Shown here: piece after piece, positions 35,354-38,064 of the stretch | Layout of the letters: every line of letters starts with the position of its first letter | How positions within the stretch are numbered: position 1 is the first letter of the stretch | NCBI RefSeq assembly: GCF_000275865.1 | Contig: NZ_CM001555.1 | Coordinates: 1,349,621 to 1,388,885 of the forward strand | From: Methanofollis liminatans DSM 4140 | GTDB taxonomy: Archaea; Halobacteriota; Methanomicrobia; Methanomicrobiales; Methanofollaceae | DNA: 39,265 nt | Direction of reading: 5' to 3' | Program-made: the position numbers and the translations under genes | Notes under the pieces: model-generated | What the model was told of the DNA's origin: nothing | Seen by the model: the letters and a program-made list of their open reading frames with translations, nothing else | The model's database searches: none

Positions 35354-35410
35354 ATGAACAGCGAATGCGTTACGTGCAGAGTGCACCAGATACAATGGGG
35401 GGACCGGTGA
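35354..35410 (+). CDS. 18-residue CxxC peptide overlapping tusA
   Basis: This is the first ATG after the predicted transcript start. It encodes 18 residues including C-V-T-C and an acidic end (WGD), and the stop TGA shares its A with the ATG of tusA (TGATG, 35408-35412). It is a leader peptide, a tiny metal- or sulfur-binding protein, or a translational coupling device. The ribosome site is unclear (an eight-G run lies at 35343-35350). Function unknown, existence as protein uncertain. Confidence 0.35.
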   Translation: MNSECVTCRVHQIQWGDR

Positions 35411-35652
35411 TGACCGGGAAGATCACGCCGGCACGGGAAGTGGACTGTGTCGGGCTATTCTGCCCGATGCCGATCTCGAGGACAAAAGAGGAGATCGAGC
35501 AGATCGGCATCGGAGAAATTCTCAGGGTCGAAGCCGACGATCCGGCCGCGGAGGAGGACATCACGCGCTGGGCAAAACGGGCCGGCCACGAGATCGTCGG
35601 TTTTGAGAAAGAAGAAGGGATCCTGACCTTTTACATCAGGAGAATGAAGTGA
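35410..35652 (+). CDS. tusA: TusA-like sulfurtransferase
   Basis: The protein has 80 residues, normal for TusA. The motif DCVGLFCPMPISRTKEEIEQIGIGEILRVEADDPAAEEDI has the sulfur-carrying Cys in C-P-x-P. Such proteins receive a persulfide and pass it to acceptors. The ATG at 35410 overlaps the stop of the preceding 18-codon ORF; no separate ribosome site fits well, so re-initiation is possible. An in-frame ATG at 35365 would add 15 residues with no family similarity. The dsrE gene follows after eight bases. Confidence 0.9.
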   Translation: MTGKITPAREVDCVGLFCPMPISRTKEEIEQIGIGEILRVEADDPAAEEDITRWAKRAGHEIVGFEKEEGILTFYIRRMK

Positions 35653-35660
35653 GGCGAGAG

Positions 35661-36020
35661 ATGACGAAAATCCTGTATGTCCAGACGAGCGGGACCGACA
35701 CGCCCGAGCGCCTCTACGCCCCGTTCGTCCTGGGGATGACGGCGGCGGCGATGGATGTCGAGGCGTCGATATTCTTTATGATCAGGGGGATCACCGCCGT
35801 ACGAAAGGGGGAGGCGGAGAAGATCCGGCTCGGGTCGTTCCCCTCCCTTGCAGAGGTGATGCGGCAGGCGATCGGCGCCGGGGTGCGGATCTATATCTGC
35901 GAGCAGAGTTCGCACCTCCTCGGCATCCCGCCGGGCGACTTCATCCCGGAGGGGACCATCGCCGGGGGGGCGACGCTGAACGACCTGGCCCTGGAGGCCG
36001 ATGCGGTGCTGACCTTCTGA
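35661..36020 (+). CDS. DsrE-family sulfur relay protein
   Basis: The protein has 119 residues. The DsrE fold is indicated by KILYVQTSGTDTPERLYAPFVLGMTAAAMDVEASIFF and GVRIYICEQSSHLLGI, where the Cys matches the family's functional cysteine. DsrE-like proteins accept sulfane sulfur, commonly from TusA. The ATG at 35661 is preceded by TGAGG at 35650-35654. It lies between tusA and the IscS-like gene and so is placed to move sulfur between them. Direct evidence for that flow is lacking. Confidence 0.88.
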   Translation: MTKILYVQTSGTDTPERLYAPFVLGMTAAAMDVEASIFFMIRGITAVRKGEAEKIRLGSFPSLAEVMRQAIGAGVRIYICEQSSHLLGIPPGDFIPEGTIAGGATLNDLALEADAVLTF

Positions 36021-36030
36021 GGGGGGCGCA

Positions 36031-37179
36031 ATGGTATATCTTGATCATGCATCGGCCACCCCGGTGGACCCGCGGGTGCTCGCCTTTGCCGGGCGCTTTC
36101 TGAGCGAGGAGTTCGGGAACCCGTCGACGCTCTACACCCTCGGCCTCTCGGCGCGGCAGGCGCTGGAAGAGGCGAGAGCGCGGGTCGCCGCCCTTGTCGG
36201 TGCAGAAAAACCGGCTTCGATCGTCTTTACCGGGAGCGCCACCGAGTCGAACAACCTTGCGATCAGGGGCACGGCCCTCAGGAACCGAAAAGACGGGAAA
36301 AAACTGCTGGTGAGTGCGATAGAGCACATCTCAGTGCTGAACCCGATGAAGGATCTCCAGAAGCAGGGGTTCGACCTCGGGGTCATCCCGGTCGATCCGG
36401 CGGGGATCGTCGATCTCGGCGCTCTCGAGGAGCAGATCTCCCCGGAGACGGTTCTGGTCTCGGTCAACTACGCCAACGACGAGATCGGGACGATCGAACC
36501 GATCGCAAAGATCGCCCGCATCGTGCACGAGAAGGGGCGGTACCTCCACGTGAACGCCACGGCGGCCGCGGGGCGCGTCCCCATCGATGTCGAGCGGGAC
36601 GGGATCGACCTCCTGACCCTCTCGTCGAACGACCTCGGCGGGCCGCGGGGTGCGGCGGCGCTCTATATCAGGCCGGGGGTGAAGGTCCAGGCGGTGATGC
36701 CGGGCGGCGGGCAGGAGCGCGGCCTGCGGTCGGGGACCGAGAACCTCTTCGCCATCGCCGGGATGGGGGAGGCGGCGCGGCTTTCTGCAGACGAGATGGA
36801 GGCCGAGATGGCGAGGGAGCGTTCGATCAGGGACGGGCTTGTCAGGGAGATCCTGACAATCGACGACTCGTATCTCATCGGTCACCCCGAACAGAGGCTC
36901 CCCGGCCACGCCAGCTTCAGGTTCAGCCGGATCGAGGGGGAGAGCATCCTGTTGAACCTGGACACCTTCTTTGGCATCCAGGTGGCCACCGGGTCGGCCT
37001 GCTCCTCCAGGACGCTGGAGCCCTCCCATGTCCTGCTCGCCATCGGGCTTGAGCACGCGGAGGCGCACGGTTCGGTGGTGATGACCCTGGGGCGGTCGAA
37101 CGTCCCTGAAGACGTCCCCTATGTTGCGGATGCGATGAAACGGACGGTGGAGAGGCTCAGGGCGATCTCTCCCCTGTAA
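36031..37179 (+). CDS. IscS/NifS-like cysteine desulfurase homologue lacking the PLP lysine
   Basis: The protein has 382 residues, with the fold of class V aminotransferase/NifS: LDHASATPVDPRV at the N-terminus, FTGSATESNNLAI, VSAIEHISVLNP (His99 of the catalytic site retained) and the cysteine loop GSACSS with Cys324. The PLP site is altered. Where IscS has S-x-H-K-x-x-G-P-x-G it reads S-S-N-D-L-G-G-P-R-G, so Asp201 replaces the Schiff-base Lys. H-V-D-A-x-Q is H-V-N-A-T-A, so Asn175 and Ala178 replace the Asp and Gln that contact PLP. As a desulfurase it is probably inactive or very different. I recall that Archaeoglobus fulgidus IscS, studied with IscU, also has Asp at this place, so it may act as a scaffold or sulfur acceptor. 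Co-transcribed with tusA, dsrE and iscU. Confidence 0.92.
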   Translation: MVYLDHASATPVDPRVLAFAGRFLSEEFGNPSTLYTLGLSARQALEEARARVAALVGAEKPASIVFTGSATESNNLAIRGTALRNRKDGKKLLVSAIEHISVLNPMKDLQKQGFDLGVIPVDPAGIVDLGALEEQISPETVLVSVNYANDEIGTIEPIAKIARIVHEKGRYLHVNATAAAGRVPIDVERDGIDLLTLSSNDLGGPRGAAALYIRPGVKVQAVMPGGGQERGLRSGTENLFAIAGMGEAARLSADEMEAEMARERSIRDGLVREILTIDDSYLIGHPEQRLPGHASFRFSRIEGESILLNLDTFFGIQVATGSACSSRTLEPSHVLLAIGLEHAEAHGSVVMTLGRSNVPEDVPYVADAMKRTVERLRAISPL

Positions 37180-37194
37180 TTCTGAGGTGATACG

Positions 37195-37584
37195 ATGGAA
37201 GACAGGCCACAGATTGGCTATTCAAAAAAGGTGATGGACCACTTCACGAATCCCAGGAACGTCGGGGAGTTCGAGGACCCCGACGGCGTGGGGACGGTGG
37301 GGAACCCGGTCTGCGGGGACCTGATGCAGGTCTCGATCAAGGTGAAAGACGACGTGATCACCGACGTGCGCTTCAAGACCTTCGGGTGCGGGTCGGCGAT
37401 CGCGACGGCGAGCATGGTGACCGAGATGGCAAAGGGAAAAACGATCGAGGAGGCGATGGCGATCACCCGCACGGACGTCGCCGACGAACTCGAAGGGCTC
37501 CCGCCGGTGAAGATGCACTGCTCGAACCTTGCGGCAGACGCCCTGCATGCGGCGATCAAGGACTACCAGGAGAAGAAAAAGTAG
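37195..37584 (+). CDS. iscU: IscU/NifU-type iron-sulfur cluster scaffold protein
   Basis: The protein has 129 residues, the normal IscU length. The three cluster ligands appear as GNPVCGD, FGCGSA and KMHCSN, and the Asp next to the first Cys is kept. It builds a [2Fe-2S] or [4Fe-4S] cluster and donates it to apo-proteins. It follows the IscS-like gene by 15 bases with GAGGTGA as ribosome site. The C-terminus ends with a basic KEKK-like tail. With the IscS homologue lacking its PLP lysine, the sulfur for this scaffold likely comes from sulfide or from the TusA/DsrE relay, which is inference. Confidence 0.95.
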   Translation: MEDRPQIGYSKKVMDHFTNPRNVGEFEDPDGVGTVGNPVCGDLMQVSIKVKDDVITDVRFKTFGCGSAIATASMVTEMAKGKTIEEAMAITRTDVADELEGLPPVKMHCSNLAADALHAAIKDYQEKKK

Positions 37585-37644: not shown

Positions 37645-38064
37645 ATGAACCGTCCGGGATGTACTCCCGCACTCTGCCTGCTCGCCCTGCTCTGCGCCGT
37701 CGCCGCCGGAGGCTGCCTCTCTGGCGAGCGGGCGGGGGGAGAGGACATACGCCCGGTCAGCGTGGAGATCGAGAAAGGCGATATCGGCCCGTTCTACGAG
37801 ACGGCGGCGGCGATGGACGACCGGGTGGTCTTCACCTTCGTCCCGACCGGCGCGAACGTCTCGGCATACCTGGTCACCTACGAGGTCAAAAGGGAGGGGA
37901 GCACGGTGGCGGCGGCGGACGGAAAATACTATGACGGGGTCAGCGCCTCGCACCCGATCGTCATCGCCGCGGGGCGCTCGCCCGGCGAGCTGGTCTCGAT
38001 CGCCATCTCGATCAAAACGCCCGACGGCGAGGTTGTCTATGAGAGCGCCTCGTCGGTCGGGTGA
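37645..38064 (+). CDS. Putative lipoprotein of unknown function
   Basis: The protein has 139 residues. The N-terminus (MNRPGCTPALCLLALLCAVAAGGC) is a signal peptide ending in a lipobox-like AAGGC, suggesting a lipid-anchored surface protein. The rest is beta-rich (VEIEKGDIGPFYETAAAMDDRVVFTF, VSIAISIKTPDGEVVYES) with no recognised domain. It overlaps the next gene convergently by 28 bases. It stands apart from the Fe-S operon by 60 bases. No function can be given. Confidence 0.7.
   Translation: MNRPGCTPALCLLALLCAVAAGGCLSGERAGGEDIRPVSVEIEKGDIGPFYETAAAMDDRVVFTFVPTGANVSAYLVTYEVKREGSTVAAADGKYYDGVSASHPIVIAAGRSPGELVSIAISIKTPDGEVVYESASSVG

Follow-up and report, generated by a model that had tools for sequence, protein, structure and literature searches.

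What use an IscS homologue might be to the IscU scaffold encoded beside it, once the Schiff-base lysine has been lost, is the question raised by a locus of Methanofollis liminatans. The window analyzed, a stretch of 39,265 nucleotides from strain DSM 4140, contains four genes on one strand, in the order TusA-DsrE-IscS-IscU, separated by gaps of 8, 10, and 15 bp. The carrier cysteines are present, and it is the IscS homologue that is without its lysine (hereafter Lys-less). The features are as follows.

35410-35652, + strand: TusA-family sulfur carrier with a CPxP motif and an ATG start (PF01206, E = 1.1e-24)
35661-36020, + strand: DsrE-family sulfurtransferase with a conserved cysteine (PF02635, E = 6e-19)
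36031-37179, + strand: Lys-less IscS homologue (PF00266, E = 2.3e-67; best PDB match A. fulgidus IscS2, 4eb5, E = 4.4e-124)
36631-36633, + strand: codon GAC for Asp201, at the position of Escherichia coli IscS Lys206
37000-37002, + strand: codon TGC for Cys324, the persulfide/cluster-ligand loop cysteine, equivalent to E. coli Cys328 and A. fulgidus Cys321
37195-37584, + strand: IscU scaffold with Cys40, Asp42, Cys65, Cys109, and LPPVK (TIGR03419 above its cut-off, 209 against 187.9 bits; PF01592)

DsrE can also be read from a GTG start (35649-36020), in which frame its conserved cysteine is Cys84. Downstream of IscU lies a short lipoprotein-like ORF (37645-38064) that matches no Pfam or NCBIfam family.

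The open reading frame of the Lys-less protein is uninterrupted and encodes a full-length IscS homologue of 382 residues, with the aminotransferase class V fold extending along its entire length. The predicted model (mean pLDDT 88) superposes on IscS/Nfs1 chains with Z scores of 51-54 (53 to 4r5f/4hvk). Confidence is low at the cysteine loop, residues 321-329, as expected of a mobile loop.

Alignment with E. coli IscS bore out the residues read by a first-pass annotation of this DNA: Asp201 occupies the position of the PLP lysine, Asn175 and Ala178 those of Asp180 and Gln183, and His99 (E. coli His104) is intact, as is the Cys324 loop, which reads TGSAC. Asn200 corresponds to His205, and Thr76, Ser203, and Thr243 (E. 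coli positions) are retained. Absent from that annotation were two further changes, of Asn155 to Asp150 and of Arg354, the E. coli IscS residue that binds the carboxylate of the substrate (PMC9978102), to Val. The E. coli enzyme becomes inactive or nearly so when Asp180, Gln183, or Lys206 is mutated (PMC9978102); with all three changed here, together with Arg354, the loss of PLP-dependent desulfuration that had been proposed is, at the level of sequence, well supported. Measured against the group I cysteine desulfurases (IscS/NifS, EC 2.8.1.7), the protein possesses the class V fold and the loop cysteine of the GSAC motif and lacks the Schiff-base lysine, the Asp180/Gln183 contacts to PLP, Arg354, and a curated family score, reaching 410.6 bits against a cut-off of 530.75 for NifS and 345.9 against 643.2 for the IscS equivalog. 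In the M. liminatans clade, Asn155 and Asp180 of E. coli have traded identities, becoming Asp150 (36478-36480) and Asn175 (36553-36555). The exchange is seen throughout the genus and in some sister genera, and it suggests that the two pocket positions changed together.

The survey of the lysine position, which the first-pass annotation had put forward as a check for methanogen genomes, covered 149 genomes of the class, 393 of the phylum, and one named scan of 84,980 species, with loci compared for both Lys-less and Lys-containing IscS. Clustering at 90% identity left 104 non-redundant Lys-less and 71 Lys-containing sequences, the former having at the lysine position D in 84 cases, Q in 11, E in 4, T in 2, and P, A, and R in one each. 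Lys-less IscS is a large family, spread across archaea and some bacterial metagenome-assembled genomes (MAGs). Named archaeal contigs include those of Methanofollis (the nearest named record, 79% identical), Methanosaeta, Methanoperedens, ANME, Bathyarchaeota, Thermoplasmatota, Thorarchaeota, Lokiarchaeota, and Hadesarchaea; the bacterial-labelled MAGs are of Desulfobacterota, Aminicenantes, Actinobacteria, and WOR-3, some of which labels may reflect mis-binning. The Asn-Asp motif is identical in 9/9 same-genus relatives with a full-length copy, and dN/dS against other Methanomicrobiales copies is 0.12-0.22, indicating purifying selection. Together with the 104 relatives, these observations rule out sequencing error or chance.

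Almost every member of the family has other residues in place of Lys206, Gln183, and Arg354, and the M. liminatans clade in place of Asp180 as well; the columns that best separate Lys-less from Lys-containing IscS are the PLP and substrate pocket positions 206, 183, 354, 205, 12, and 75, together with several positions of gained residues (331, 304, 89, 112, and 109). The loop cysteine is invariant in 122/122 members, as is Ser326, and the IscU-docking residues E309, G310, E311, S326, C328, and S336 are fixed, so that the retained IscU or cluster interface suggested earlier is supported by the sequences. Gained and fixed are K/R331 beside the cysteine loop (96%), R304 (95%), K112 (97%), and N205 (97%), as well as R89 and N109. 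The fixing of such new, family-specific residues argues for a changed function and not for decay. No column near the PLP motif of the alignment holds a conserved replacement lysine; the sole lysine gained and fixed, at position 112, is distant from the motif in sequence. Among the residues with which E. coli IscS docks TusA, R55 and mostly D/E52 are kept and W45 and E49 are not. The phosphate cup (Thr76, Ser203, Thr/Ser243) is kept in nearly all members, as is His104, and the A. fulgidus structure 4EB5 is drawn with PLP (PMC9769115). The description of the protein as PLP-free is thus conjectural: with the cup kept, PLP, PMP, or some other phosphate-bearing ligand may be bound.

The two kinds of IscS also differ in their neighbours. 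Within 1300 bp on the same strand, TusA, DsrE, or both precede IscS in 91/96 non-redundant Lys-less loci (both in 65; the Lys-less loci counted have 800 bp or more of sequence upstream) as against 1/68 Lys-containing loci (TusA). IscU was detected downstream in 82 of the 91, and the median distance between DsrE and IscS in Lys-less loci is 4 bp. DsrE or TusA went undetected in about one-quarter of Lys-less loci, and both in 5/96. The TusA profile recovers the E. coli protein at 7e-25, and relaxing the search at the Lys-containing loci revealed no missed same-operon case. Fisher's test gives p ~1e-38, a figure that is not counted as evidence because the loci share descent. The carrier cysteines and the IscU ligands are also conserved: the TusA motif cysteine in 86/86 TusA proteins adjoining Lys-less IscS, the equivalent of DsrE Cys84 in 73/76 aligned neighbours (two Methanosarcina rows are gapped there in the profile alignment, of which the one inspected has a cysteine in IIACE), and IscU C40, D42, C65, and C109 at 95-100%. 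In an ANME-1 genome, the Lys-less operon stands back to back with a Lys-containing IscS, and TusA and DsrE are on the Lys-less side. The sole Lys-containing exception, locus L138 of a Hydrothermarchaeota MAG, has TusA and an Ile in place of Gln183. Directly upstream of its TusA and Lys-containing IscS is a second, fast-evolving IscS (L138:2577-3761), in which Lys is replaced by Arg and the cysteine loop is changed to GSPCMAR.

In two trees, both with moderate supports, the M. liminatans and A. fulgidus proteins fall within the main Lys-less clade, with the Lys-containing sequence of L138 at or in its base, as if the link to TusA predates the loss of the lysine. The trees require three changes of lysine state and set Methanosarcina acetivorans IscS1 apart from the main clade. 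A single Lys-less clade was not rejected by the AU test, in which the constrained tree scored better (p 0.76); independent, convergent losses of the lysine are accordingly not claimed, and the Lys-less clade may be of single origin. The Lys-less loci are therefore not independent evidence, and the link to TusA and DsrE is to be read as an old association retained by a single lineage or a few, and not as something gained independently many times.

The Lys-less protein itself is already known from A. fulgidus and M. acetivorans. The A. fulgidus IscS2 structures (PDB 4eb5, 4eb7, and 4hvk, and the D199K mutant 4r5f), at E ~1e-124 and ~52% identity, are the nearest solved; the gene product surveyed differs from the 4eb5 sequence by one residue. 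In common with M. liminatans, A. fulgidus IscS2 has Asp for Lys, Ala for Gln, an intact cysteine loop, and an adjoining IscU, and DsrE lies 4 bp upstream, whereas the equivalents of Asp180 and Asn155 are kept. The statement in the first-pass annotation that the A. fulgidus protein has the same Lys-to-Asp change and forms a complex with IscU was correct (PMC7585200; PMC9769115): it is without desulfurase activity owing to the missing lysine (PMC7585200, PMC9769115), and through its Cys321 it ligates the [2Fe-2S] cluster in the complex (PMC9769115). A. fulgidus has no Lys-containing IscS; an E. coli IscS query found only the Lys-less type in this and four other Archaeoglobaceae genomes. M. liminatans, in contrast, encodes one Lys-containing IscS with its own IscU (G000:C1:1742542-1743627), making the Lys-less unit a second system there, as well as SepCysS and a SufB-like gene.

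The published M. acetivorans case, IscS1 (MA0808; PMC7585200), likewise stands beside IscU (IscU1, MA0807), with TusA and a DsrE_2-family gene upstream (L179) and the loop motif STGSACFS. It differs in having Thr for Lys and Asp for His104, with His205 and Arg354 kept, and its IscU1 (L179:3248-3910) differs in carrying a C-terminal PF01883 (FeS_assembly_P) domain. In the literature, iscS1 is said only to cluster with four genes whose function is unknown, and its product is marked as proteome-detected (PMC7585200). Canonical IscS-IscU, or minimal ISC (MIS), systems share the fold, the loop cysteine, and the IscU partner but are defined by a cysteine desulfurase, whereas the Lys-less unit is without the active-site Lys, Gln, and Arg and has TusA and DsrE added. 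The TusA/DsrE relays of sulfur oxidizers and of tRNA thiolation use the same TusA CPxP cysteine and DsrE cysteine as are found in M. liminatans, where the genes are linked not to dissimilatory or tRNA-thiolation genes but to IscU and Lys-less IscS. No report of such a link in archaea was found in the open-access literature; the breadth of the family and its operon linkage to TusA and DsrE are what is added here.

We consider it somewhat probable (about 0.5) that Lys-less IscS is a desulfurase-derived platform, providing docking and a cysteine ligand for IscU, that is fed by a sulfur relay of TusA and DsrE. The residues that bind cysteine and react with it via PLP have been lost, and the fold, the IscU-docking surface, and the mobile cysteine loop are kept. 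The cysteines of DsrE and TusA would carry sulfane sulfur as persulfide and hand it either to the loop cysteine or straight to IscU, and the loop cysteine would help to hold the nascent [2Fe-2S] cluster on IscU, by analogy with A. fulgidus Cys321. Cysteine would then not be the direct sulfur donor of the unit; the relay might draw on sulfide, polysulfide, thiosulfate, or another enzyme. The linkage, the conserved carrier cysteines and IscU ligands, and purifying selection support this reading, as do the occurrence of TusA and DsrE_2 with the divergent M. acetivorans IscS1 and the reliance of the Archaeoglobaceae on Lys-less IscS alone. Of the sulfur supply by TusA and DsrE that had been proposed, the association has strong comparative support; the transfer step itself we infer. 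Against the relay, sulfur moves the opposite way in E. coli, where TusA takes it from IscS in competition with IscU (PMC2854127, PMC11302665); W45 and E49 are not kept, and about one-quarter of loci have no detected DsrE or TusA, five of them neither. The kept phosphate cup and His104 count against a pure platform, which would not need them.

The last point leads to a different reading, in which the protein is a changed PLP- or PMP-dependent enzyme that binds its cofactor non-covalently and uses another residue, perhaps the new Asp/Asn pair or His104, for slow chemistry on cysteine or another substrate. Besides the cup residues and the PLP drawn in 4EB5, the very low activity retained by E. 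coli K206A (PMC9978102) and the fixing of the Asn-Asp motif in most members, which fits a working site, speak for it. We nevertheless regard it as improbable, given that the lysine position is variable (D, Q, E, T, P, A, R), Gln183 is gone, most members no longer have the Arg for the substrate carboxylate, Asp180 has become Asn in the M. liminatans clade, and the family offers no conserved lysine near the motif as a replacement. A further alternative is that Lys-less IscS supplies only docking and a cysteine ligand, with free sulfide of the anoxic surroundings feeding the cluster and TusA and DsrE serving another acceptor. Ligation of the cluster by A. fulgidus Cys321 is in keeping with this, a ligand-only role for IscS1 was proposed by the M. 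acetivorans authors (PMC7585200), and sulfide is the donor in Methanococcus and, in E. coli, is used by SMS (PMC10500019, PMC12192291). One TusA-DsrE-IscS-IscU unit of A. fulgidus shares its gene run with SepCysS. It leaves unaccounted for the near-constant linkage to TusA and DsrE across phyla and the conservation of the carrier cysteines, and we judge it rather unlikely.

That M. liminatans also has a Lys-containing IscS paired with a separate IscU, along with a SufB-like gene and SepCysS, might be taken to mean that clusters are made by canonical IscS-IscU and SufBC, the Lys-less unit being a sink or regulator of the sulfur relay that, for example, parks IscU or TusA. This is hard to reconcile with the Archaeoglobaceae, which have no other IscS, and with the full retention of the IscU cluster ligands, and is very improbable. 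That the gene is a decaying pseudogene, as the lost catalytic residues alone might imply, is refuted by conservation: it is under purifying selection in a conserved operon, its new residues are conserved, and its distribution is wide, and M. acetivorans IscS1 is marked as detected in the proteome (PMC7585200).

The rebuilding of the catalytic site and the clustering of carriers with a scaffold suggest that Fe-S clusters are built with carrier-delivered sulfur and not from cysteine. In M. acetivorans, it has been noted that other factors may be involved in assembly without SufBC when cysteine is absent (PMC10500019). The gene link to TusA and DsrE provides a concrete candidate for the sulfur donor, both there and for the IscS-IscU system of the A. 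fulgidus type. The distinct Fe-S route that had been envisaged is plausible, even if the Lys-less protein was known. The wider proposal, that anaerobes have a widespread and previously undescribed Fe-S assembly system in which cysteine desulfuration on IscU gives way to a sulfane-sulfur relay of TusA/DsrE and a cysteine-independent platform derived from a desulfurase, is more tentative and falls short of even odds. The Archaeoglobaceae would then have no other ISC route, and the system would be a candidate for the factor still to be named in M. acetivorans. If true, ISC-type assembly is not universally reliant on cysteine desulfuration, and the name cysteine desulfurase is wrong for many of the archaeal genes that bear it.

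Two further gene arrangements were noted. At the A. fulgidus IscS1 locus (L181:491-5862), the genes after TusA-DsrE-IscS-IscU encode, in turn, an HTH protein, a DsrE_2-like protein, an unknown protein, and SepCysS, a proximity hinting that the relay may also feed tRNA-dependent cysteine synthesis. In one Methanomicrobiales family (f2; L024-L036, L112), the lysine position is occupied by Gln and once by Pro, and DsrE is preceded by as many as three TusA-like genes in tandem, of which the second and third have changed CPxP motifs.
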